From a virus: a stretch of 43,086 nt of DNA. The stretch is from positions 1 through 43,086 of the IMG/VR virus record IMGVR_UViG_3300042568_000829; one strand, given 5' to 3'. Positions 1,724 through 32,165 of this stretch are shown piece after piece. Position 1 is the first letter of the stretch, and each line of letters starts with the position of its first letter. The notes beneath the pieces are model-generated. The model saw only the letters and a list, made by a program, of their open reading frames with translations, had not been told where the DNA came from and did not search any database. A program made the position numbers and the translations under genes.

Positions 1724-1971
1724 AGTGTTCTTATAAAGATAGGAGTATTGTCGCCAACATAAGAGCCAACAATATTGTAGTAATAGAATTCATAAGCCTC
1801 GTCCATGCTCATGTCATCCCTCATCAGTATTGTGATGACTTTGTCAATGTCATACACAATCTTCCCGTTCTCCTCGTCAATGCCAATGATGGCATCATCA
1901 AAACCATCAGCAACAAGAAATGTCTCTTCAGGATACATCTCAATTATTTGTTGAATATTATTGTTGCTCAT
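1720..1971 (-). CDS. conserved phage protein between groEL and groES (83 aa)
   Basis: An acidic 83-aa protein with a central GIDEENGKIVYDIDKVI segment and a C-terminal motif (EAYEFYYYNIVGSYVGDNTPIF). Similar sequences occur widely in phages, as far as I recall, without an assigned function. It overlaps groEL by 14 nt and groES by 4 nt, so the three genes form one translationally coupled unit. A chaperonin accessory role is only a guess from position. Confidence 0.75.
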   Translation of the reverse strand: MSNNNIQQIIEMYPEETFLVADGFDDAIIGIDEENGKIVYDIDKVITILMRDDMSMDEAYEFYYYNIVGSYVGDNTPIFIRTL

Positions 1972-3586
1972 AGCTCCGTGCCATTGTGATGATGGCGTTA
2001 GTTGATAGAATAGTTGTTGCCACGCTGACAGCGTTTTGCAATGCGCTACGTGTTACCTTAAACGGGTCAATGACACCCATCTCAATAAGGTCACCCATCT
2101 GTCCTGTCTTGACATTGTAGCCGTAACCTATAGGTATATCCATCTTATACACTTCACTTGGCTTTAACCCTGCGTTAGCAAGTATCTGTTGGAACGGAGC
2201 CATCAATGCCTCAGTGACAATGCTTACTGCAGCGACATACTCTTTGCTTGGATGAGTAAGAGGATGCTGAACAGATGGAATCTCAGCACTCTCATTAAGC
2301 AATGCTACTCCTGCCCCCGGCAATATACCCTCCTCAAGAGCTGAACGAACCGCACACACAGCGTCATCAACACGGTCATACAACTCTTTCTGCTCAATGT
2401 CAGTCTGACCACCTACAAAAATAACACCAATGCCACCTGTAAGTGAGGCAATACGCTCCAAGATGAAGTCTTTGTCAGCCTTACGAGTAGCTTGCTCATG
2501 TGCTTGCCACAATTGCTTGACCCTTTCGTCAATTGACCCTTGGTCAACTTTTGCGTTACTGCGAATAATGATGGTTTTGTCCTTGCTGACAATAACTTTT
2601 GCCGCATGACCCAAGTCACCGTAGTTGATTCGACTCAAATCATCACCCGTCTTCTCACTAAAGTAGGTAGCTCCTACACTCAACGCAATATCTTGCATCA
2701 ATTCATGCTGCTTGTATCCGAAATTTGGCGGAGGAACAGCACAAACCTTCAAATTCCCCTTCACACTGTTAGCCGCAAGCGTGTTAATCACATTCACATT
2801 GCATGGAGAAATAATCAAAAGCTTCTTTCCCTCTGAAATTATTGGTTTTAGCACGTTCTCAATCTGCAAAATGTTGGCAATCTCAATGTCAGCTACCAAT
2901 ACCATCACATCATCAAAGATACACTCGTCTTTTTTTGCATCATTGATGAACAATGGGCTCAAATAACCCCTATTAATCTGCAATCCCTTGGTGGTCTCAG
3001 AGTATGTCTCATTCGTTTGGCTTCTCTCTACAGTTACAACACCGTTCTTACCAACCTCTTTGTATACATCAGAAATAATCTTACCAATCTCACGGTCATT
3101 GTTTGCTGAAATAGCGGCCACATCTACTAACATAGATGTCGTTACCTTCTTGCTCTTCTTTCTTAAGTTGTCCACCACCTTGTTACTGATGTCCACCATG
3201 TGTCTCAACACAGCAGTCCTGTTCATGTCCTCAGTAATGCGCTCAAGCCCACCAAGCACCAAGCCCTCTGTAAGCACGATTGCAGTAGTCGTACCATCAC
3301 CCGCAGATGTAGCAGTCTTATCGGCCGCCTCCTTCATCATGCGAACCGCAAGGTTCTCTACCGGGTCAATCAAGTCAATTGACTTGGCGACAGTAACGCC
3401 ATCCTTAGTAACAGTAACACCATGTGTGTGGTTTGCACTCTCGATTAATACCGTGTTACCCGAAGGGCCGAGAGTTGACTTTACAGCCTTCGACATCTTT
3501 ACAATGCCGTTAATCAATTTGGTCCTGCCTTCAGTACCAAACTTTAAGTCCTTGGGCGAATAGCCCAATCCTGATGTCTCTACCAT
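1958..3586 (-). CDS. groEL: phage chaperonin GroEL (Cpn60)
   Basis: A full-length 542-aa group I chaperonin. Near the N-terminus are STLGPSGNTVLIE and KDGVTVAKSIDL; the nucleotide-binding AGDGTTTA lies near residue 95; the apical domain occupies the middle; and DDAVCAVRSALEEGILPGAG carries the catalytic Asp region. It ends ARSYEQQ and lacks the Gly-Gly-Met tail of many bacterial GroELs. It should form an ATP-driven folding cage with the GroES encoded downstream, probably for virion proteins. It has its own promoter (box 3637-3644). Gene order groEL then groES is the reverse of bacterial operons. Confidence 0.95.
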   Translation of the reverse strand: MVETSGLGYSPKDLKFGTEGRTKLINGIVKMSKAVKSTLGPSGNTVLIESANHTHGVTVTKDGVTVAKSIDLIDPVENLAVRMMKEAADKTATSAGDGTTTAIVLTEGLVLGGLERITEDMNRTAVLRHMVDISNKVVDNLRKKSKKVTTSMLVDVAAISANNDREIGKIISDVYKEVGKNGVVTVERSQTNETYSETTKGLQINRGYLSPLFINDAKKDECIFDDVMVLVADIEIANILQIENVLKPIISEGKKLLIISPCNVNVINTLAANSVKGNLKVCAVPPPNFGYKQHELMQDIALSVGATYFSEKTGDDLSRINYGDLGHAAKVIVSKDKTIIIRSNAKVDQGSIDERVKQLWQAHEQATRKADKDFILERIASLTGGIGVIFVGGQTDIEQKELYDRVDDAVCAVRSALEEGILPGAGVALLNESAEIPSVQHPLTHPSKEYVAAVSIVTEALMAPFQQILANAGLKPSEVYKMDIPIGYGYNVKTGQMGDLIEMGVIDPFKVTRSALQNAVSVATTILSTNAIITMARSYEQQ

Positions 3587-13475: not shown

Positions 13476-14108
13476 ATGACACAAAACAAATCAGTTTTCG
13501 AAAGGCTATCAGCCATCAATGTAAATGAGTACGTTGAAAAGAAAGACGGACTTACCTACCTATCATGGGCATGGGCTTGGTCCGTTGTAAAGAAAGAATG
13601 TCCCGATGCATCCTATCAAATCCTGCCTACAGATTACGATGAGGCTCTAGGATTCATGTGCCACACTCAAGTAACCATTGAAGGGCAGACCCTAGAGATG
13701 TGGTTGCCTGTGATGGACGGCAAGAATAAGTCCATGAAGAAACATTCTTATGAGTACACCACCAAGTATGGGGTAAAGAGTGTTGAAGCGGCAACTACAT
13801 TCGACATCAACAAGACCATCATGCGATGCTTGGTTAAGAACCTAGCCATGTTTGGATTGGGCATCTACATATTTGCAGGAGAGGACTTGCCTGAGGTTGA
13901 GACATCAGCACCTGCTCCTGCTCCTGCCAAGGCTAAGCCTAGCGCAGAGTTGATTGAGTTGGTTATTGGCTCAGACAATTGGAAGAGCGTAGTGAAGTAT
14001 GTGAATGCCAACAAAGAGTTGGGCATTGGAAAGATTGGTCAGCAGTTAAACAGAAAGTACAGCATGACCAATGAAGTTAAGCAGGCAGTTGTAGACTTGT
14101 TGAAGTAA
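13476..14108 (+). CDS. single-strand annealing protein (DUF1071 / Sak3-like)
   Basis: A 210-aa protein with the DUF1071 signature near the N-terminus (residues 14-36: NVNEYVEKKDGLTYLSWAWA then W). It continues through the conserved domain (VEAATTFDINKTIMRCLVK, then GLGIYIFAGEDLP), an Ala/Pro linker (APAPAPAKAKP) and a small helical end. DUF1071 proteins are phage ssDNA-annealing recombinases. The next gene, starting on its last base, is the partner exonuclease, giving an exonuclease-annealase pair like lambda Exo/Beta. Confidence 0.85.
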   Translation: MTQNKSVFERLSAINVNEYVEKKDGLTYLSWAWAWSVVKKECPDASYQILPTDYDEALGFMCHTQVTIEGQTLEMWLPVMDGKNKSMKKHSYEYTTKYGVKSVEAATTFDINKTIMRCLVKNLAMFGLGIYIFAGEDLPEVETSAPAPAPAKAKPSAELIELVIGSDNWKSVVKYVNANKELGIGKIGQQLNRKYSMTNEVKQAVVDLLK

Positions 14109-14878
14109 TGAAGACATTGCTAGAGACAATTGACCTAACAGGGGAGCCAAATATCTTGGCTCTCCTTAATGATGACAAAGAGTACTATGGTGGGGTAGGC
14201 AAGAACTACCTATCAAACTCAGACATTGGGACCTTGCTTACAAACCCGAAGGAATTCGGTAAGTCAAGAGAGGATAGCAAGGCTTTCATGGATGGGCGAT
14301 TCTTCCATCAGTTGTTGCTTGAGCCTGAGAAGGCAGAGGCTACACCTTTCGTTGATGTGAGCACTAGGAATACCAAGGAGTACAAGAACTACTGCGAGAC
14401 AAATAACCTTCCGTTCTGTATGCTAAAGAAAGAGCAGGATGAGGTGAGGGAGTTGGTTAGTATTATGAAAAGCAATATCACATTTTACGATGAGATTTAC
14501 AGAGAGGGTAATCAGTTTGAGGTTCCCGCTGTGGGACAGATTCAAGGGATGATGTGGAAGGGTAAGGCTGACATCGTTGGTAAGGATTTCTTGATTGACT
14601 TGAAGACCACAGGCGACATTCAGAAATTTAAATACTCAGCGAAGGCATACAACTACGATTCGCAGTGTTATATTTATCAGCAATTATTTGGTAAGCCTTT
14701 GGTGTTCTATGCCATTGACAAGACAACAGGAGTTCTAGGTATTTTTAAGCCATCTCCCGAGTTTATCGAGTCAGGTGAGCGTAAGGTAGCCCGAGCCATA
14801 GAAGTCTTCTCTAAGTACTTCGGGAGCAAGCCTACGGACAACATTGATAATTACTTCATTGATGAGTTCCTAATTTAA
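14108..14878 (+). CDS. PD-(D/E)XK exonuclease (RecE/lambda-Exo-like partner)
   Basis: A 256-aa nuclease. YLSNSDIGTLLTNPKEFGKS and GRFFHQLLLEPEKAE form the typical N-terminal region. The catalytic set is visible as GKAD155 and then LID164-L-K166-T, followed by the Gln/Tyr helix SQCYIYQQLFG. It resembles phage exonucleases of the DUF3799/YqaJ type. It should resect dsDNA ends so that the DUF1071 protein can anneal the strands. The start overlaps the annealase stop by one base (TAATG). Confidence 0.85.
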   Translation: MKTLLETIDLTGEPNILALLNDDKEYYGGVGKNYLSNSDIGTLLTNPKEFGKSREDSKAFMDGRFFHQLLLEPEKAEATPFVDVSTRNTKEYKNYCETNNLPFCMLKKEQDEVRELVSIMKSNITFYDEIYREGNQFEVPAVGQIQGMMWKGKADIVGKDFLIDLKTTGDIQKFKYSAKAYNYDSQCYIYQQLFGKPLVFYAIDKTTGVLGIFKPSPEFIESGERKVARAIEVFSKYFGSKPTDNIDNYFIDEFLI

Positions 14879-14885
14879 GAGTACT

Positions 14886-14961
14886 AGTCAGGTGGGCGTA
14901 ATGCGGCAAGGTAGCCAAATCCTTTGAGGTTGCTTATCAGGTTCGAGTCCTGCCCTGACTA
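14886..14961 (+). tRNA. tRNA-like element with perfect acceptor stem
   Basis: AGTCAGG (14886-14892) and CCTGACT (14954-14960) pair perfectly, followed by discriminator A. Positions 8-9 are TG, a short D stem GGC/GCC is present, and the T arm CAGG-TTCGAGT-CCTG (14938-14952) is canonical. Total length is 76. The anticodon arm is weak: the best pairing is AATC with GGTT around CTTTGA, and the D loop is long. By resemblance of CTTTGA it may derive from tRNA-Gln(TTG), but decoding ability is doubtful. No 3' CCA is encoded. Confidence 0.5.
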
Positions 14962-14975
14962 CATAAATTGCCAAA

Positions 14976-15081
14976 AGTGTAATTTAATGCACGATTTGGA
15001 TAAATATCCAATCATCTGCTTAGCCTTAGAGGTAGGTGGTTGGTTCAAATAGACTGAGGCATACTAAAAACAATTTACACT
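14976..15081 (+). promoter_or_regulatory. structured leader of the SSB-like gene
   Basis: AGTGTAA (14976-14982) is complementary to TTACACT (15075-15081), which touches the start codon at 15082, so the whole leader could close into a multi-branched fold. Inside are TGGATA/TATCCA (14997-15002 with 15005-15010, extended by GAT/ATC past a bulge) and GCCTTAG/CTGAGGC (15023-15029 with 15054-15060). Closing the outer helix would bury the start region, which suggests translational control. No homologous second copy was found. Confidence 0.45.
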
Positions 15082-15381
15082 ATGGCACAAGATGAAAAAA
15101 TCTTTGCAGAAGGTTTCTCCTTCAAGAGAAACGAAAAGGCTCCTGACTTTGTAGTAGGGAGACTATCACTAAAGGTTGATGATGCGGTAGCATTCATTAA
15201 AGACCATCAGAAGAATGGTTGGGTGAACCTAAACATCAAGACCGCTAGAAGTGGTAACCACTATGTTGAACTCGATACCTACGAGCCAACAACACAGCAA
15301 GCTCCTAGCAAAGCGGCACCAAAGCCACAAGCAAAGGTAGTACTACCCGAGCCCGAGGATGATGGTGACCTGCCGTTCTAA
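15082..15381 (+). CDS. SSB-like ssDNA-binding protein with acidic tip (99 aa)
   Basis: A 99-aa protein. The body (FSFKRNEKAPDFVVGRLSLK and NGWVNLNIKTARSGNHYVEL) reads as a small beta-rich domain common in phage replication modules. An Ala/Pro linker leads to EDDGDLPF, matching the acidic D-D-x-[IL]-P-F tip with which bacterial SSBs recruit repair and replication proteins. It is too short for a standard full OB-fold SSB, so I call it SSB-like. It is followed by a strong terminator. Confidence 0.65.
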   Translation: MAQDEKIFAEGFSFKRNEKAPDFVVGRLSLKVDDAVAFIKDHQKNGWVNLNIKTARSGNHYVELDTYEPTTQQAPSKAAPKPQAKVVLPEPEDDGDLPF

Positions 15382-15393
15382 TAGGCAAACTAA

Positions 15394-15420
15394 GGGGGAG
15401 AAAATCTCTCCCTTTTTTTT
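15394..15420 (+). terminator. rho-independent terminator after the SSB-like gene
   Basis: GGGAGA (15396-15401) pairs with TCTCCC (15407-15412) around AAATC, followed immediately by eight T residues (15413-15420). It separates the recombination/SSB unit from the primase-helicase unit. Confidence 0.85.
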
Positions 15421-15432
15421 AGCCTTTTTGCC

Positions 15433-15591
15433 TGACGAAAATGTCAAACTCATTTCCCTATATTTTCTATATATAATTATTCTTTCTTTCTTTTTTTTCT
15501 GATTAAATTTTAAGAATAAAATTGACATTATTGACAGCAGATTGATTATCAGTAACTTACACGACATTAAACCGACACCGAATTAACATTT
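15433..15591. repeat. second origin-like region, related to 3681-3952
   Basis: After TGAC-gaaaat-GTCA (15433-15446) the order CATTTCCCTATA, TATATATAA, a CTTT-rich tract and AAAATTGACATTATTGACA parallels 3764-3866 (CATTTTTCCCCCTATA, TATATATATA, pyrimidine tract, AAAATCGACATTTTCGACA). More GACA-type copies follow (CGACATTAAA, CCGACACC, TATGACAC) up to the primase start. The stretch has no gene. It may be a second origin, a primase autoregulatory site, or a diverged duplicate. Confidence 0.5.
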
Positions 15592-21851: not shown

Positions 21852-24800
21852 TTATTTTCTCTTAGTTTTTTCTTTGTATTCCTTGTCCTCTCTTTTCTCC
21901 CTAACCTTTCTTAGTTTACTATCAACAGATTCTGATGCTTTAGTTTGTTTATCCCAATCAGAATTAGGTCCAAATCTTTTTCTCCACAAAGCAGGATTCT
22001 GACGCTTCATTGTGGACTCATTACGATATCTAATACCTTTGCTTGAGTCATAAAGAAGAGATTCTTTCTTTGCCTTCAATGCTTCTTTCTGTTTATCAAC
22101 TGAAGCTTTAGCCTCTTCACTTCCTACAATCTCAAGAATCTTTTGGTCGATAGCCTTCCGCTCATCTTTGTTTGTAGTCTTCTTCTTTAATTCATTCAAG
22201 TCTTCTAACTTATCAAACTTTTCTTTTGCAGCCCCCGGCTCAGCAGCTTTTGACTTTTTATTTTTAAGGTCTGCGTAGATTGATTTGTTCACTACTGTCC
22301 TTACATCTTTGTACAAAGGAATAAATCCTGCGTTACCTAGAATCTCTAGAGGTATTCTCTGAGTTACTACTCTTCTCTCACGCTCTATAGCGTCTGCTTC
22401 TTTCTTAGTAGTATCTCCTGATAGCACAGCCTGTACTGAACCTGACAATATGTTCTCACCTACTAGTCTTGCTGTTTGTACAGCAGGACCAAAAGAACCT
22501 CCTAATTTAAATAGCACATCATCTATGCTTTGCTTATCTTCTTTTCCTTGTGGAATGATAGAATACGCTATTGCATCTTCATATTGGTCGTATTCTCCAT
22601 CCCTTAGGAAGTCAAGATACTCTTGATTAAACTTCTCTAGACCAAAGTTTACAAACATTTTTACTGCGTTACCAAAGTCTCGACCAAAGAACAAAGAGCC
22701 AACCGTACCTATAAATGCTTGGCCTAGACTTTGAAGGAATGTTTTATCGTCCTCCTCTTCTTCTTCATCTTCTACACCAAATAATGGAGCAGCCAATTCT
22801 ATTATACCACCTGCAAGCATCTTGCTTAACATAGAGTATACAGTCATACGTGTAGCAACAGCACCCAACAACATGGCTCCCTTAGTTCTACTCATTGGTC
22901 CGTCACCCATCATTGCATACACACCTGTTCTCGCACTCATAAATTCGAATATCAAGAACCTAGTCATGTAACTATTGAAGTTATTGTAAATCTTAGTAGG
23001 TATTGTTTGATTCGGTTTAGATGCTCCTTTAAGAATACCCATGAACGTATTGTCCGTGGCACCTGCTTGAACAGAAGTTCTGTCAGCAATTTCTGTTGCT
23101 TTATCGATGGCTTCCTTATTTTCTTTTAAATATTCCTTATTGTTCTCGCCAATTAATTTAAAGTCAACATCCTTGCCTGATACCTTCTTAAACTCCTGAG
23201 CAAATGAGCCAAACCAAAGTGCTCTAATTACAATTTTATCAGGAGTTGAAATAAGGTTATCTGACAATACCTCAACCCCATTGGTATATCTTTTACCTGT
23301 AAGATTCCAAAGCTGCTGAATTTTATTAATCACACGAGAATCAGATAGCTTACCCCCGCCAACTCTCTGTTTCATAGCACTAGTGTCCATGAAGTTTCCT
23401 GATAGGCTATCCTCAGGGAATATTCTATTTATCTGAGTACTATTTAGGTTCTCCAATACGGATGGTCCAAGTGGAGACATGATAATGTTAGCATATTTAG
23501 TTCCTAACGTGAATGCTTTTGGTTCAGCAAGAAAAGCAAAGGATATGTTAGAGGCTAATTCAGCTGTAAATCTTCCTGTACCTGCAAGCACAGAACGATA
23601 TCCCATTCTTTTGATGTATTCCACGATTATGTCTGCTGTCGTATCATCCATGATGTTGTTGACAAGCAAATTATCTACGGCCTCTTCGTATGCTTTAGTT
23701 AATGTATTGGATACTTCTCTTTGAACTTTAGTTACATTCTTTCTTTCATCTAAAGTTTTCTCAAGTTGATTCAATGCAATTCTAGCAGTTTTAATTGGTC
23801 CTGTAAGATTGTAATCCAACAACACATACTTAGCACCACGACTTGCTGAAGCAAATACATCAAAGTTAATAGGCTTCGCTCCCTTGGTTCTTTCTTCCAA
23901 AGATTTAGCCTTTGTTGATGGTCTCATATTGTTATCAGCTCTGTTTGTAATATCTGTTGCTGATTTAATATCACCCTTCTTACCATCACCTAATACAATT
24001 AGGTGCAAGTAATTATTCAAACCATTAAATACCTGACCTCTCATGACATTAGAAGTAAACTCAGCCTTACTTCTAAGGCTTTCATTTATCTTTTGAATAT
24101 CATTGATGGCATCCTTCTCAGCTTGATTAAAAGAATTGTACAATTTTTCAAGGTTAATCTGCCCATCTATTTGATACATCGAGCGTATAAACTTCAAGTT
24201 TTCTAAGTCAGTTTTACCATACTTTTTAGCAGCTCTTTGTTTCTCAATGTGCTCTATGGTTTTATTGATGTAATCCAATGCAGGATTTACTTGCTCGTTA
24301 CCTTGATTTGATTCGAATTCAAGTTGACGTAGATAAGTCATCATCTTCATCTTAGATAGAGCTAACTTTTCTTCGTTAAAAGAAAATGAACTAGCAACCT
24401 TTTGCTCTGCTTTCTCTAATGCTGAATTGATTCTTTTCAGTTCTGCTTTGTACTTCGCTTCAGCTTGAGCTGTCTTTAAAAGCAACGCATTAAATACTTT
24501 TTTATTTTTAAGACCAAGGGCTTGGTCAATAAAGAAAAGAGGTATTCTTTTGACTGCTTCATACAATGCACCTTCCTTAGTAACTAGGTTTTTAATTTTA
24601 CCTATCGCAGTAGAAATCTTTGGAAGCGAAACATTACTTGTAGCATCTTCAATAATCTTTCCATCATTTATACCATCTATTTTTAGGTATACTTGATAAG
24701 CAAAACTAGGAAGATAGTTTTTGTTAATGTTGTCAATTACCTTGGATAGGTTTGTCAAATCATTAAGTCCCAACTTCATTAAAGTTTCTTCAGAAACATT

Positions 24801-27800
24801 TTTGATGAGCTCAGCAAATTTCTCAGCAAAAGCTTTCTCTTCTTGAGAAGGAAGTCCATCAATGCCTGTTATCTTTGAAGCTTTGATTTTGTCAATTGCT
24901 TCTTTCTTCTTCTCCTCTATTTCTTCTTCAGACATCTTTTGCTTTTCATCCTGAGGCACAATCTCTTTCTTATACTTGCGCATAAGGTCTGCATCCTCCT
25001 CAGTTATCTCACCCTGCTTAACCATTTCTTTTAAGGTAGCAGCGTAATCTAATTCACCACCCTTGGTGAAAACTTTGTTCTCTGAATTTTCTAGGATATC
25101 AGCCAACTCGTAAGCTCTTGACTGCTCGTCATTAACAGCACGCAAGATGGCTTCAGTATCACTCTTTACTACATCATACTGCTCTAGTGGAAGAACTTGC
25201 TGACTAGCTCCAAGCATCTCAACTATCTCAGCATATCTGTCTAGGTATGCGTCAGGGATAAGCAAAGGATTTATTGAAAGCAATTTGTTCAATGGCCCTC
25301 GCAACGTATCAGCAATACCAATCTTAGAGGTAATGTTTTTCTTAGCGTTAGCTATCTTTCCTCTTAGTCCATCTATTATATCACGGTACTCAGCGTCAGC
25401 AAATACATTTGCCATGTAGTCAATGAAGTCTTTTACTGACTTTTCATTGAACGCATTTATGTTTAACAGCCTAGTTGTTACTCTAGTTACTTGCTTTGAA
25501 GTAAGCTTGCCTGTTGAAGCTAGTTCCTTAATTTCCTTACCTAAATCAGCTGTGATTTTTCTCCAAGCTTTTACTGCATCCTTCGCTCCTTCTGCTAGGT
25601 CCTTTAATCTTTTATTTAGGATTTCCTTTTCAGTCATGGTAATCTTAGTGACATCATTGACGATGCCAATAAGTCTACCTGCTTTTGGAGCTGACTTCTC
25701 TCTAGCTCCAAACATCTTTCGAACCTCACGTACTAGCTTTTCTTTTTGTACGTCAGTAGAATCTTTGTATGCTTTTGAGTTCTTTAGCTTTTTAATTACT
25801 TCAGTAAGCGGCATTCCTTTCGCAGCTAGATTCCCTAGCTTCTTCATCAAAGAATCATAACCACTAAGAGTCTCTTCGGACAACGTGATTTTTCCTGCTG
25901 CAGGAATATCTGTAGCCATTGCCTTATTTATAGCCTCTTCAGTAAGACCTTTTCCTTGAAGGAATTGTCTAATTGCATTCTCAGAAAATCCCTGAGCACG
26001 TGCCTGCTTTACAACATTTATTGCTTTGGCATCACTGCTAAGTTGAGCTTTCCCTTTTACCTTCTGAGTTGATTCTTCAACCCCTTCAAACATTAGTTTG
26101 GGATTGTCAAAAAGAATTTGGTCAGCTCTATCGATATTTTCAGTCTCAGATAATAATGTATTTCTTCTTTGTTCTTCAGTAAGACTTCTTCTGAACTCAA
26201 CATTTCTTGCCTCAACTTCTCCTGCAACTCTGTAATAAATATTGTAAGCGTCAGCAGGTGTAAATTCAACTCTAGATTTAAGTTTTTCAAAGACTTCTTT
26301 ATCAAGTTCTTCTTTGTATTCTTTTAGTAACTCTTCGAGTTCCTTTTTTATCTCTTTTGTTTCTTTCTTATAACTTAATAGTTCTAGAATAGCATATTTA
26401 TTTAATGCATCCTGAAGTAAATCTTTAGTAGGCTTTTGTAATCTTTCGCTATTAGGGAAAAGTTTTCTTGCAGCTTCATGCAAAAGTGTTTTTCTTTCTA
26501 CATTATTTTTTGCATTCTTTAATAACCCATCAAAAATAATTTTAGCGGTCTTAGTACTTGCCCCTCTTTCAAATAATTCTTCATACTGAATTGCGTGTTG
26601 AAGTTCATGAATAATAGTTAGCTCAGCCTCGCTTCTTTTATCGGGGTCTATATAGTTTTTGCTATTGATGGTAATCTTCTTTGCAGAAGAACTATGTTTT
26701 CCATGCTTGTTTTCAGGCATATCCTTAAAAACTATCCTATAGTTTTTGATAAATGGATATGCTTCATACAATTCAGGAGAATCAAATATGTCTGTTATTT
26801 TAGCTACTCTTATTTGAGCGCCATCAGAGTCTTTTGCTTCCTTTAAATCTTCAAGTTCAAATTTTTTAAATTTGCCATCAGGGATTTCATATCTCCACTT
26901 CTTATCTATTCCTCTTTCCCAACCTGTAGCTCTTCTGATTTCTAAAGGTGACTTTCCTTCCTTTTCTAATATTTGAGCTGTATTATAATCTTGTAATACT
27001 ACTCCTGCTAATCTAGCCTTTTTACCAATCAGCTGAGCCTTACCTTTCATTCTTGGCTCAAGCTCTCTAATTACACCTGTCTCGGCAGCAATAACTTTAG
27101 TCTGCATTGGCTTGGTCTTTTCTTCTCTACCGCCAATTACATCCTTATACTTTTCTTTGATTGACTCAGGCATGATATCCCAAGAGTCAATCTTCTTATC
27201 AGGTACACCAACTACTTCACCGCTAATAGCAAACTCGTAAGTAGAGTGAGGGGCTTTGCCTGAGACTGCTGTTGGTTTACCAACAAGCATGATATCGTTT
27301 TGACCGAATCCATTTTCTTTGTAGAAACCATCTCTCAATTCATTGTAGTCAATGAATGCATTGAATGAACCTAGCAGTTCTTTTAATGAACCTTTAGGTG
27401 CAGTCTTCAATGCACCTATTTGACCAAGTGCTATAAGAAATGGCTTTCTCTTTGGACTATCAGCCAACTCTTTGAATGAGTTAACTCCATTAAGTGCGTC
27501 TCTAAGAGTTCTTAGTTCTACTGTTTCTTTTTCAAAGTTGTTGAGAGCTTCTCTGAACTTATTAAAGTCTGATGTCTTATTGACTCTTTCAGCCAATAAG
27601 TCTAATACCCTTTTGTTAAATAGCTTAGCCTTTTCAGGAGAGCCACTAATAAAGAATATATAGTCAGCCTGATTGATTTGATTCGTCAAAGTTTTCTCAG
27701 GTAGACCACTAGCCCAAAGGATTCCTTTGCTTCGGTTGGCAGGGTCTAGTGCAAAGCTTGGTCCCGCATCTAGGTAATGCGTATCACCAACCACTTCATC

Positions 27801-30800
27801 AAAGTAGTTTCCACGACCTAGTTGGTCAGCCATCCAAAACCATACCTTCTGCTTCTTAGCTACGATGTCATCGATTAAAGCCTCGATGTCAATCTTATCT
27901 GCTTCGGTAACGAATGATAATGGAAGCGGAGTCTTAGGGAAATTCAAAGAAGCCTTACCCTTAGGGGCAGGATTGATTTCGCTTGGGGTACCAATAGGAG
28001 CAGATAGGTTTTCCTGAATAGCTGTAATGTCAGCAGGGTTAATTGCTTCACCCTTCTTAATAGACTCTGATATGTTTCTAAGGAAATCAATAGCCTGCTT
28101 GGCATCTCTAGCATTTTGAAATGGAACAAATGCTCCATTAGTAATCCTAGATACAAAGTCATTTATTATTAAAGCAATATCCTGTAACAGACTAGAAGAT
28201 ATATTTTTATCTGATTGAGAAAGCCTAGCAGCTAACTCAACTATGTACTCTTCGTATGAATCATTCTCCTCATATTGACTTGCAAATTCGGTTAATGCTT
28301 TATTACCTTTTCTATTTATTGCTGCTGCAACTCTATTCTTAAAAGTCTTAAAAGCTTCTGTGTTCTCACCAAATGTTTTACGCATTATACCATGCGCAAC
28401 CTCATGAGCAATTGTTGTATTATCAGCCACGTTAAGGTTGATGTCAATCTTGCCAACATAAGTACCATTAGGTCTTTGAACATAAGAAAAGTACCCTGCT
28501 GATTCAGCGGGACCATTGATAGAAGCCATTGCATTTCTGTAGCTGTTCTCATCATCGTGTATTACGATTTCAAAGTCAGGAAGCACAGACTTCAATGTAG
28601 TCAATGTCTTCTGAGCGAAGTCAATAACTTGTTTCTTGGCGTTGTCCTTCACTCTATTTCTCAAAGAGTCCATTCCTATTGGGTCAGCAACAGTTACTCC
28701 TGAAGTTCTAGCGGGTTCAGTAGGAGTGACAGGAGCTTCTTCCTGCGCAAACATCTCCTCCATTTTAGCAAGCTGTTCTGCTTCAGTAAGGGTAGTAGGT
28801 TGAGGTGCTACAGTAGGTTGAGCGGTCACCTCAGGCTGTGCTTCTGCTTCTGCTCTCTTAGAGTTTACATAGTTTCTGAATAAATCAGTATTACGAATAT
28901 CTCCTACATTTCTTTCTACTTTTACACCAACACCTGTAATAGTTCCATCTTTTTTCTTATTAAAAGTAAATCGAGTTCTTGTCTCATTATCATCAAAGTT
29001 GTTGTATTCAAATACAACTGAGTCACCAAGGTCTGTTCTTTGTGGCTCTGCCTGTGGCTCAAATTTCTTTGATTGTAACACCTTACCAAGTACCTCATTA
29101 TTCTTATCTGATACTTCTTCGGTAGGATTGTACTCAACGATTTGGTCATCGGTTAGCTCAACTTTAGGGGCTACTTCTTCTTGGATACCCGCTTCGGCAG
29201 TGACTTGAGGTTCTGCTTGGGATACTCCTTGCTCCACTTCTTGGCCAACTCCGGCTGTTGGCTGTACAGGTACTTGACCTGCTGCTTGCTCTTGAATGGC
29301 ATCTTGTTCTGTTGGTTTAATTCCTGTAAATTCTTGAAGTCTTTCTAAGACTCCTGTTTTATCATTATTACTAATTTCAATATTCATAGCAAGAATTTCT
29401 TCCTTGCTATACTCTCTCATTAAGTAGTCAATAAATTCAGGCTTAACTTCTTGCCCATTTACTTTATATGTCGGGGCCTCAAAAGGAATATTAGCCATCT
29501 CTCTCTCTTGAGCAGAGGCTTCTTCTTCTTTTAAATCCTGTAGTTCTTTCTCAATCCTTTGTCTCTCTTCAGTTGGTAACTTAGTAGTTAGGTTTAACTC
29601 TGTAGCTGTATCGTCATCCTCAATAGCCTTACTCAACTCAGCAATCTTAGCAGCTCTCTGAGCTTTTACATTATCAGCCTCTGATTGAATTTTCTGAGTA
29701 GCTCCTTGTTCAGCTATTTTTGAAAGCTCCTGATTTATTTCATTGATTCTATTTTTTTGAGGAGTAACTAGCGCACCATCTTTACCTTGAATGTATTGCT
29801 CTAAATCTTTTCTTTCTTTCAAAAGATTCATCGCCTCCTTCTTCTGCTGAACAGTTAATCCATCAGGTAGCTGACGATATATACCAACTGCATTTCTATA
29901 GTTTTGTTCCTCTTGCTTGGCATCAGAAGGGGATATTCTACCACTAGCTACTTTCTCTTTAAGACTAGTTATATATGCGCTTTGAAGGGTTTCATCATTA
30001 GCCATGTTCTCAAACATCTCAAATGTTTTATCATTCATTTTGAGAAACCCTGCTTTACTATATGCAGCACTAACCGCATTAGGAATTCCTAGTGTGAAAC
30101 CACCAATAGCTTCTTGAGCTCCTGCATAGAACATTTCACCTACAGCTTTCTCTATAGTTTCAGGAGTTTGAAAATACTTATCACCTTTTATATACTCATT
30201 ATATATGGCCTTGAACCCTGTCTCTACACCTTGTTGTAAAAAACCTGTCTCTCCTTCAGCAAGTCCTGCAGCAGTAAGAACTAATGCCCCTCTAGCAATT
30301 TTACTTTTTACTTCATTCTCTGCTAATTCTCTAAGTGATGTATAACCTACTCCTCTTCCTGCCTTACCTAACATAGCCATAGTAATGTTAGTTACTATAC
30401 CCTTACTTTGCAATACGTTTCTAAGACCATATGCTTCTAAAACAGATGATGCTATTCCAATAGGAGCAACGATTGCAGCTTTTTCAACTTCAGATATGTT
30501 TGCAAATGCAGGGTCTTTTTCCATCTCTTGCATTAATCCATCTGAAATCTGAGAATACATTTGAGCTGTTCTCTGAGCCCAACCTGCAGGGGTTGAGCTA
30601 CCAATCATAGCAGGCAATGATTTTGCTAAACCTAATATAGCTCCTCCCCAAAAACCTTCTTGTTTTAGATTAGTCCATTCAATAGTAGTATTTTCATCAC
30701 CTCTTCTTATTCTAAGACCTTCTCTTATGTATGGCATGATATCAGCTTTTACAAGCTTTTTACCGAAGTCATCCATTTCATCTTCCCATCTATCCAATTG

Positions 30801-32165
30801 CTCAGGAGTCAATGTCTTTTTCCAATCTTGAATAGATTGGTTTTCAGATGGAGGTGCAACACCTATTTTAGATGCTCTTTCAATTGTACCTTTTCTTAAA
30901 TTTTCAGGGCTAATTAAAAATTCAGCAGACCCAAGTTCCATAGTAGCATCTACAAATACATTTGTTGTACCTGCCGCAATACTACTAATTCCCTCTAAAA
31001 TAGAATTACCTACACCACCAAGCCAACCCCCTTGACGTGCTTTTGTTTCAACATATCTACCAACAGACTTCTCTAAAGAAGATGCCTTGTTTGTAAGCTT
31101 CTGTTCTTCACTAAGTAAAGTTGGAAGCTCATTAACTAAAGACAATCTTGTTTTTTCTGCAGCATCAACCCTTTTAATAAACTCAGGATTATTCCTTTGA
31201 GATTCAGGAATTGAATTAAGTGCATCTACTTCCTTCTCATAAGCCTGTTGTCTTAAAAGAAAATCTTTTTGCTTTTGATTTACAGCAGTAGCCTCTTTAT
31301 TTATTTTAGCAACTTCATCATCAACTTCCTTTTGATTGCTGAATATCTTAACTTCTTGGTCCTTTAAACTCTTCTCAAGAACAAACAAACCTTTCATAGG
31401 TGTATTGTCTTGAATAAACTTTTGAAGTTTAAATGCTTCTTCTGAAGATTTACTATCTAAAAAATTGTTTAATGATATTTGTATTTTTTTGCCGTCAGGA
31501 GCAGTTACGTCCATCCAATCTCCTGTAGCCCCCGCTTCCTCAAACTTAAATCCTAATCCGCCAAAACGGTATTCCATTTCGGGGACAACAAATTCTTCAT
31601 TCTTATCAATAAGGTCTTTATTAATTTGAGCTAACTGCTCATTAAGATATTTGTTATGCTCTACCTTTGGCTTTTCACCTAGCTTATCAAATTCACTTTC
31701 AGCAAGTGATTTATTTTGCTCTACTTTTTTTAATTCTTTTTGAAACTCAGGACTCGTTGCAGGTGTAGTTGGTATTATTCTATCAGCAAAAGTCTTCCTT
31801 GAAGAAGACTCTTCTGCATACTTTTTAAATAAAGCTTTTGTTTCATCGTCAGGAGCTAATACGGACGAAGCCGAAGAACCAACTCCCGAAGGTAATACCG
31901 TAGTATCTTTTTTTTTTGGCTGTTGTTCCACAGCCTCTTCTTCAACAGCAGTAGGAGTTTCTACAGCAGCAGGAGCAGGAGCAGACCCTGCATATTTTTT
32001 CATGAACGTATCTCTGTCCTTGGTATACAGTCTTAGTTTAGAGACATCGTCATAAACCTGATTCTGATATTGAGGGTTCTGCCATTCAGATTGGAAATCC
32101 TCAAAAGATTTATTGTAACGTCCCTTCAGGACTAATGTGTTGTATAACTTTTTTAATTCGTCCAT
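21852..32165 (-). CDS. giant polyvalent virion protein with two zincin motifs (3437 aa)
   Basis: A 3437-aa protein. N-terminus: LYNTLVLKGRYNKSFEDFQS, then long coiled coil. Hydrophobic helices occur near residues 500-530 (GGAILGLAKSLPAMIG) and again near the C-terminus (SMLSKMLAGGIIELAAPLFG, then an acidic run). Pro/Gln/Glu linkers lie near residues 980-1150. First zincin: HEVAHG at 1254-1259. A domain with VWFWMADQLGRGNYFDEVVG follows. Second zincin: IIHELQHAIQ with H1853, typical of phage large polyvalent proteins. Helical repeats fill the rest. No DxDxD polymerase motif was seen. Probably an internal/ejection protein delivered with the DNA; protease targets unknown. Confidence 0.85.
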   Translation of the reverse strand: MDELKKLYNTLVLKGRYNKSFEDFQSEWQNPQYQNQVYDDVSKLRLYTKDRDTFMKKYAGSAPAPAAVETPTAVEEEAVEQQPKKKDTTVLPSGVGSSASSVLAPDDETKALFKKYAEESSSRKTFADRIIPTTPATSPEFQKELKKVEQNKSLAESEFDKLGEKPKVEHNKYLNEQLAQINKDLIDKNEEFVVPEMEYRFGGLGFKFEEAGATGDWMDVTAPDGKKIQISLNNFLDSKSSEEAFKLQKFIQDNTPMKGLFVLEKSLKDQEVKIFSNQKEVDDEVAKINKEATAVNQKQKDFLLRQQAYEKEVDALNSIPESQRNNPEFIKRVDAAEKTRLSLVNELPTLLSEEQKLTNKASSLEKSVGRYVETKARQGGWLGGVGNSILEGISSIAAGTTNVFVDATMELGSAEFLISPENLRKGTIERASKIGVAPPSENQSIQDWKKTLTPEQLDRWEDEMDDFGKKLVKADIMPYIREGLRIRRGDENTTIEWTNLKQEGFWGGAILGLAKSLPAMIGSSTPAGWAQRTAQMYSQISDGLMQEMEKDPAFANISEVEKAAIVAPIGIASSVLEAYGLRNVLQSKGIVTNITMAMLGKAGRGVGYTSLRELAENEVKSKIARGALVLTAAGLAEGETGFLQQGVETGFKAIYNEYIKGDKYFQTPETIEKAVGEMFYAGAQEAIGGFTLGIPNAVSAAYSKAGFLKMNDKTFEMFENMANDETLQSAYITSLKEKVASGRISPSDAKQEEQNYRNAVGIYRQLPDGLTVQQKKEAMNLLKERKDLEQYIQGKDGALVTPQKNRINEINQELSKIAEQGATQKIQSEADNVKAQRAAKIAELSKAIEDDDTATELNLTTKLPTEERQRIEKELQDLKEEEASAQEREMANIPFEAPTYKVNGQEVKPEFIDYLMREYSKEEILAMNIEISNNDKTGVLERLQEFTGIKPTEQDAIQEQAAGQVPVQPTAGVGQEVEQGVSQAEPQVTAEAGIQEEVAPKVELTDDQIVEYNPTEEVSDKNNEVLGKVLQSKKFEPQAEPQRTDLGDSVVFEYNNFDDNETRTRFTFNKKKDGTITGVGVKVERNVGDIRNTDLFRNYVNSKRAEAEAQPEVTAQPTVAPQPTTLTEAEQLAKMEEMFAQEEAPVTPTEPARTSGVTVADPIGMDSLRNRVKDNAKKQVIDFAQKTLTTLKSVLPDFEIVIHDDENSYRNAMASINGPAESAGYFSYVQRPNGTYVGKIDINLNVADNTTIAHEVAHGIMRKTFGENTEAFKTFKNRVAAAINRKGNKALTEFASQYEENDSYEEYIVELAARLSQSDKNISSSLLQDIALIINDFVSRITNGAFVPFQNARDAKQAIDFLRNISESIKKGEAINPADITAIQENLSAPIGTPSEINPAPKGKASLNFPKTPLPLSFVTEADKIDIEALIDDIVAKKQKVWFWMADQLGRGNYFDEVVGDTHYLDAGPSFALDPANRSKGILWASGLPEKTLTNQINQADYIFFISGSPEKAKLFNKRVLDLLAERVNKTSDFNKFREALNNFEKETVELRTLRDALNGVNSFKELADSPKRKPFLIALGQIGALKTAPKGSLKELLGSFNAFIDYNELRDGFYKENGFGQNDIMLVGKPTAVSGKAPHSTYEFAISGEVVGVPDKKIDSWDIMPESIKEKYKDVIGGREEKTKPMQTKVIAAETGVIRELEPRMKGKAQLIGKKARLAGVVLQDYNTAQILEKEGKSPLEIRRATGWERGIDKKWRYEIPDGKFKKFELEDLKEAKDSDGAQIRVAKITDIFDSPELYEAYPFIKNYRIVFKDMPENKHGKHSSSAKKITINSKNYIDPDKRSEAELTIIHELQHAIQYEELFERGASTKTAKIIFDGLLKNAKNNVERKTLLHEAARKLFPNSERLQKPTKDLLQDALNKYAILELLSYKKETKEIKKELEELLKEYKEELDKEVFEKLKSRVEFTPADAYNIYYRVAGEVEARNVEFRRSLTEEQRRNTLLSETENIDRADQILFDNPKLMFEGVEESTQKVKGKAQLSSDAKAINVVKQARAQGFSENAIRQFLQGKGLTEEAINKAMATDIPAAGKITLSEETLSGYDSLMKKLGNLAAKGMPLTEVIKKLKNSKAYKDSTDVQKEKLVREVRKMFGAREKSAPKAGRLIGIVNDVTKITMTEKEILNKRLKDLAEGAKDAVKAWRKITADLGKEIKELASTGKLTSKQVTRVTTRLLNINAFNEKSVKDFIDYMANVFADAEYRDIIDGLRGKIANAKKNITSKIGIADTLRGPLNKLLSINPLLIPDAYLDRYAEIVEMLGASQQVLPLEQYDVVKSDTEAILRAVNDEQSRAYELADILENSENKVFTKGGELDYAATLKEMVKQGEITEEDADLMRKYKKEIVPQDEKQKMSEEEIEEKKKEAIDKIKASKITGIDGLPSQEEKAFAEKFAELIKNVSEETLMKLGLNDLTNLSKVIDNINKNYLPSFAYQVYLKIDGINDGKIIEDATSNVSLPKISTAIGKIKNLVTKEGALYEAVKRIPLFFIDQALGLKNKKVFNALLLKTAQAEAKYKAELKRINSALEKAEQKVASSFSFNEEKLALSKMKMMTYLRQLEFESNQGNEQVNPALDYINKTIEHIEKQRAAKKYGKTDLENLKFIRSMYQIDGQINLEKLYNSFNQAEKDAINDIQKINESLRSKAEFTSNVMRGQVFNGLNNYLHLIVLGDGKKGDIKSATDITNRADNNMRPSTKAKSLEERTKGAKPINFDVFASASRGAKYVLLDYNLTGPIKTARIALNQLEKTLDERKNVTKVQREVSNTLTKAYEEAVDNLLVNNIMDDTTADIIVEYIKRMGYRSVLAGTGRFTAELASNISFAFLAEPKAFTLGTKYANIIMSPLGPSVLENLNSTQINRIFPEDSLSGNFMDTSAMKQRVGGGKLSDSRVINKIQQLWNLTGKRYTNGVEVLSDNLISTPDKIVIRALWFGSFAQEFKKVSGKDVDFKLIGENNKEYLKENKEAIDKATEIADRTSVQAGATDNTFMGILKGASKPNQTIPTKIYNNFNSYMTRFLIFEFMSARTGVYAMMGDGPMSRTKGAMLLGAVATRMTVYSMLSKMLAGGIIELAAPLFGVEDEEEEEDDKTFLQSLGQAFIGTVGSLFFGRDFGNAVKMFVNFGLEKFNQEYLDFLRDGEYDQYEDAIAYSIIPQGKEDKQSIDDVLFKLGGSFGPAVQTARLVGENILSGSVQAVLSGDTTKKEADAIERERRVVTQRIPLEILGNAGFIPLYKDVRTVVNKSIYADLKNKKSKAAEPGAAKEKFDKLEDLNELKKKTTNKDERKAIDQKILEIVGSEEAKASVDKQKEALKAKKESLLYDSSKGIRYRNESTMKRQNPALWRKRFGPNSDWDKQTKASESVDSKLRKVREKREDKEYKEKTKRK

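Follow-up and report, generated by a model that had tools for sequence, protein, structure and literature searches.

The tmRNA carries a tRNA-like domain without an anticodon arm, and YrlA and bacterial Y RNAs, together with the tRNA-like structures of plant viruses, are further examples of tRNA mimicry by non-coding RNA. Compact H-type pseudoknots, one of which is a protein operator in a phage leader (below), can also be riboswitches. Among the non-coding RNAs of phages, GOLLD and ROOL lie near tRNA arrays, are several hundred nucleotides long and form cages (PMC12286853). The gene 32 leader of phage T4 is a translational operator: gp32 binds its pseudoknot, spreads over the A+U-rich run at the ribosome-binding site and represses its own translation (PMC3014915). 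STAXI comprises two or three tandem pseudoknots near SSB genes and varied DNA-handling genes (PMC2864571).

Here we analysed a 43-kb linear virus record (IMG/VR IMGVR_UViG_3300042568_000829; 43,086 nucleotides, hereafter the window), whose nearest annotated relative is the podovirus-like MW202828.1 from Manatee Spring. On balance, we judge it probable that its exonuclease-to-SSB transcript carries two conserved RNA devices in tandem, an excised tRNA-like RNA that acts in trans and a pseudoknot operator.

Results

The replication and recombination block of the window encodes a Sak annealing protein, a PD-(D/E)XK exonuclease (DUF3799/exonuclease VIII-like; 14108..14878, + strand) and, after a gap of 203 nt, a 99-aa SSB-like protein (15082..15381, + strand) and a BT4734-like primase. 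We infer that the 99-aa protein is an SSB from its acidic tail (DDGDLPF, with LPF at the tip) and the position of its gene. Its PHROG match was weak (E = 0.074), Pfam gave no match, a PDB profile search returned chance-level matches only, and the predicted structure (pLDDT 52) was too poor to use. After the gene, a terminator-like hairpin could be read directly in the sequence (GGGGGAGA-aaa-TCTCTCCC, then a T run; 15392..15419, + strand), which suggests the end of a transcription unit. An earlier reading of this DNA, made without database searches (the sequence-only reading), had called the exonuclease-SSB gap the only one of 200 nt among the recombination genes; the 210 nt at 15382-15591, 3' of the SSB-like gene, are also of that size. 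Elsewhere in the window, a 542-aa ORF at 1958-3586 (- strand) was named a GroEL-like chaperonin from its sequence alone, and 21852-32165 (- strand) is a single ORF of 3,437 aa, to which a similarly outsized gene of MW202828.1 corresponds.

Within the gap, at 14886..14961 (+ strand), we found the 76-nt element described by the sequence-only reading, with its perfect acceptor stem (7 bp; AGTCAGG 14886-14892 and CCTGACT 14954-14960) and canonical T loop (TTCGAGT, 14942-14948). The T arm spans 14938-14952 with four of five stem pairs formed, and A-C-A directly follows the acceptor stem, with A73 at 14961. A D-like arm is present as a GG-loop hairpin (GGC-AAGGTA-GCC, 14905-14916). Two further segments on the same strand, the unpaired core TGGGCGTAATG (14893..14903) and GGTTGCTTAT (14928-14937), are invariant or nearly so in alignment, and a GGGC/GCTT helix between them is possible. 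What had been taken for a weak anticodon arm is not such an arm: the element lacks an anticodon stem of 5 bp and the 7-nt loop that carries U33, and the position is held by a short 3-bp hairpin (CCT-TTG-AGG, 14921-14929). ARAGORN, which had been proposed as a check, made no standard tRNA call on 14886-14961, and the Rfam tRNA model (RF00005) scored it at 19.9 bits, below the gathering cut-off of 29. The tmRNA covariance model (RF00023) did not match the window. Folding of a 221-nt stretch exceeded chance expectation (z = -2.3).

Elements of this type, which we call W, were found in 62 viral contigs by a 5' pattern scan and in 46 contigs by an independent 3' pattern scan. An alignment of 30 sequences supported four arms, with 98.7% of cells paired and two-sided compensatory change in 10 of 21 pairs; none of 500 shuffles was as high, and slid controls were far lower. 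TGGGYGTAATG and GGTYGYTTAT were invariant or nearly so in this alignment, the former being partly fixed by the 5' search pattern and confirmed by the 3'-anchored scan. The window element has the TGGGYGTAATG core, the GG-loop D-like hairpin, GGTYGYTTAT and the T arm. It is also the sole match in the window to a W-type covariance model (92.4 bits, E 1.6e-22) built from 30 sequences, the window sequence among them. Across the loci searched, the model parted W members (63-101 bits) from other members of a wider family (up to 44 bits). We consider it well supported that the W type is a structured, non-decoding tRNA-like RNA, and the suggestion that the element is a tRNA mimic is borne out to this extent. 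The W type was also considered as a host-chromosome RNA and rejected as such: among 395 Bacteroidia genomes the covariance model matched none, under strict filters and without a positive control, and the pattern search matched one.

The same data bear on the proposal that the element is a decaying tRNA-Gln or other tRNA pseudogene. Its sub-threshold tRNA score would fit decay, and TTG could serve as the anticodon of such a reading. However, TTG is a 3-nt hairpin loop that varies in length and sequence among W relatives, and the parts foreign to tRNA (the invariant TGGGYGTAATG core, the GG-loop D-like hairpin and GGTTGCTTAT) show conservation and covariation across dozens of phages. These findings refute decay of a tRNA-Gln, and we regard the idea as barely credible.

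The W type is one subtype of a wider tRNA-like family. Scanning for exact matches to a pattern of the conserved T arm plus the end of the acceptor stem gave at least 120 matches, and the final set contained 291 distinct elements. When 218 members were compared, the median length was 102 nt (range 64-190). The ends are conserved (AGTCAGG-TG-GCGGAATTGGTAGACGC ... ACAGG-TTCGAAT-CCTGT-CCTGACT-A-C), which is partly imposed by the search pattern, and AGTCAGG is also dominant among relatives found through their proteins; the middle is very variable. Family elements avoid ORFs, with overlap in 32 of 291 compared with 1059 of 1455 random intervals. Our search of open-access papers turned up no account of this family, and an earlier description is possible; it is widespread in phages and apparently uncatalogued.

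Some members of the family are neighbours of real tRNAs. Of 340 copies, 70 have a canonical tRNA no more than 300 nt away, and in all 70 cases the two share a strand. For W copies near canonical tRNAs the strand agreed in 24 of 24, and for seven W copies the distance is 5 nt. Flanks also correspond. T precedes 80% of the tRNA-like elements and 69% of canonical tRNAs (n=480) at position -1, and the 5' flank profiles match; C74 is present in 456 of 466 canonical tRNAs here, and the tRNA-like elements likewise have N73-C. Given that both flanks match those of real tRNAs, the simplest inference is excision by tRNA enzymes, and co-orientation together with the common flanks (U-1, N73-C) makes tRNA-type excision likely.

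Such placement, with matching flanks, would also be expected of unorthodox decoding tRNAs whose fold escapes both ARAGORN and Rfam. Against this, the loop at the anticodon position differs in length between members, with a few nt at one extreme and about 50 nt at the other, and conserves no triplet; a canonical anticodon arm occurs in just 1 of the 218 members examined. A decoding function is very improbable.

Some of the variable middles recur as related groups. In one subtype that was inspected (L111:588-742, L301 ~6516, L274 ~5408, L139 ~5430 and L180 ~12636) the middle (CACCCACTCGTCTCGTGGGCGCTGA...) is kept and the acceptor stem is changed on both sides. The first ~150 nt of L207 hold a clean tRNA body in which the anticodon stem has 5 bp and about 45 nt take the place of its loop; the same insert occurs with a different D arm at L306:2307-2421. 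The L078 middle is freestanding, without tRNA ends, at L152:7210-7300. A phage-borne tmRNA gene (59.1 bits) lies amid tRNA and tRNA-like genes at L111:1088-1533. Strong self-folding of the middles in general was rejected, as it scarcely exceeded that of shuffled sequence (mean z -0.32). A search for antisense targets of the middles found none in the phage DNA examined; where inspected, matches above the reversed control were mostly other tRNA-like copies or freestanding middles, and antisense targeting of phage DNA was likewise set aside.

Conserved ends with exchanged middles, the recurrence of a middle at more than one locus and the presence of multiple copies in a single gap are features that mobile or recombining cassettes would share, the ends serving DNA exchange and the RNA having little function of its own. 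The compensatory changes in the acceptor, D-like and T stems argue instead for selection on RNA, as do the tRNA-like flanks on both sides, and we consider it improbable that the elements are mainly such cassettes.

Protein searches with the exonuclease and primase gave 99 viral loci. The exonuclease-SSB gap of the relatives can be as short as 1 nt or as long as about 1,400 nt. Its inserts vary: tRNA-like elements (up to three copies) occur there, as do small ORFs and hairpins of other kinds. A perfect hairpin of the GTGTCTTCAAAGACAC type recurs in many relatives near the start of the gap, by the exonuclease stop (L013, L028, L034, L037, L063, L099 and others). Another hairpin of about 60 nt (GGGAGGCTAAGGGACCCCACCTACCTGCAATTGGGGTG...GCAGGTAGTCTCCC) is a separate element in the gaps of L002, L005, L021, L024 and L030, and is found in L081 as well.

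Roughly half, if not more, of the relatives that bear the pseudoknot described below lack the tRNA-like element, so the element is not needed for SSB control. Where it is present, 2-3 nt separate the 3' end of its acceptor stem from the pseudoknot that follows in 18 of 25 relatives, even though the tRNA-like sequences there differ. In the window, this spacer is atypical at 46 nt (14962..15007, + strand).

The close junction, together with flanks that match those of real tRNAs, is what would be expected if the element served mainly as processing punctuation, an RNase P/Z cut yielding an independent SSB-like mRNA with a pseudoknot-protected 5' end. A cut that frees the downstream mRNA, as suggested by the sequence-only reading, is plausible. 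As the main purpose it is unlikely, however: many relatives have the same pseudoknot without the element, many copies are found at other sites, among them tRNA arrays with no mRNA to free, and the window itself has the long spacer. The junction may instead record one insertion site that preceded exchange of the middles. For these reasons we see release of the mRNA as probably a consequence of excising the tRNA-like RNA.

The leader of the SSB-like gene contains an H-type pseudoknot at 15008..15060 (+ strand), identified by alignment and covariation. Its stem S1 pairs 15008-15021 with 15030-15043, L1 is A15022, S2 pairs 15023-15029 with 15054-15060, and L3 spans 15044-15053. The 5' end is 74 nt before the ATG at 15082, and an A/U-rich, unstructured run (15061..15081, + strand) leads from the pseudoknot to the start codon and presumably holds the ribosome-binding region. 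Among 32 aligned sequences, 94% of cells were paired and 20 of 22 pairs showed two-sided change. Two-sided cells numbered 104, compared with 25.7 in shuffled alignments, and none of 500 shuffles reached the observed values.

This fold revises the earlier view of the leader, which was held to be structured through pairing of its ends, AGTGTAA with TTACACT. Both motifs are present (14976-14982 and 15075-15081), and TTACACT does touch the start codon. The stem is not conserved, because its 5' arm lies inside the atypical spacer, which most relatives lack, and we rejected it; the pairing is probably due to chance. The leader is indeed structured, but by the pseudoknot. Similarly, the tRNA-like element and the leader, described as joined, are both conserved RNA pieces of one gap but constitute two separate modules.

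Directly downstream of the pseudoknot lies the ATG of an SSB-like gene in 56 of 57 matches. The one exception (L091:2729-2782) is an orphan second pseudoknot before a very short ORF, which is followed by a tRNA-like element and a normal leader. Relatives with the most diverged SSB-like proteins have no pseudoknot, and in them the gene mostly comes directly after the exonuclease. Given the riboswitch precedent for compact H-type pseudoknots, the structure might respond to a ligand or a host protein, or affect mRNA stability only. This is a contender, but a somewhat doubtful one, in view of the near-exclusive position before SSB-like genes and the absence of the pseudoknot alongside the most diverged proteins. 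We think that the pseudoknot leader probably switches translation of the SSB-like gene, by analogy with the T4 switch.

Discussion

Our data suggest a model in which one transcript would give rise to two RNA functions. Host RNase P would cut at 14885/14886 and a tRNA 3' endonuclease close to A73-C74, and the stable, tRNA-shaped RNA set free in this way may act in trans. Our favoured guess is that it serves as a decoy for, or regulates, a host factor involved in tRNA handling. Cleavage at these two sites would also part the SSB-like mRNA from the mRNA upstream. On the SSB-like mRNA, the protein could bind its own pseudoknot and, under limiting ssDNA, spread over the A-rich run to block the start codon, following the logic of gene 32.

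More tentatively, and with rather less than even confidence, we extend this model to phages of aquatic Bacteroidota-type hosts. These may possess an extensive class of non-decoding tRNA-like RNAs, with a common tRNA body matured by host tRNA enzymes and exchangeable inserts in place of the anticodon arm, acting in trans (e.g. against tRNA-attacking or tRNA-handling factors of the host). One of them, in the phage family of the window, would be so placed that its maturation also generates the SSB-like mRNA, with the pseudoknot switch close to the new 5' end. Non-decoding look-alikes of this kind raise the question of what role such members play in phage tRNA arrays.

Compared with canonical phage tRNAs (RF00005), W elements share the acceptor stem, the T arm, placement in arrays and the U-1 and N73-C flanks, but have no anticodon arm, a rearranged D-like arm and scores below the Rfam cut-off. 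Unlike tmRNA (RF00023), they have no mRNA-like domain and are about 75 nt long. We saw no sequence link between the W type and YrlA, Y RNAs or plant-virus tRNA-like structures. GOLLD and ROOL are likewise phage non-coding RNAs near tRNA arrays, but W elements differ from them in being about 75 nt long and in having tRNA ends.

For the pseudoknot, STAXI is similar in lying near SSB genes, but here a single leader pseudoknot precedes one gene; an Rfam scan of the window gave no STAXI match at the gathering score. The gene 32 operators of T4, T2 and RB69 resemble the present leader in layout: each has an H-type pseudoknot in an SSB gene leader, then an A/U-rich unstructured run to the start (PMC3014915). 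The present leader differs in its S1 of 14-15 bp, its phage lineage, the putative status of its autoregulation and an SSB-like protein without detected similarity to known SSB families. The likeness appears to be one of layout and position, not of descent. This pseudoknot is a candidate phage SSB operator of the gene 32 type, which would be the second such operator and independent of the first.
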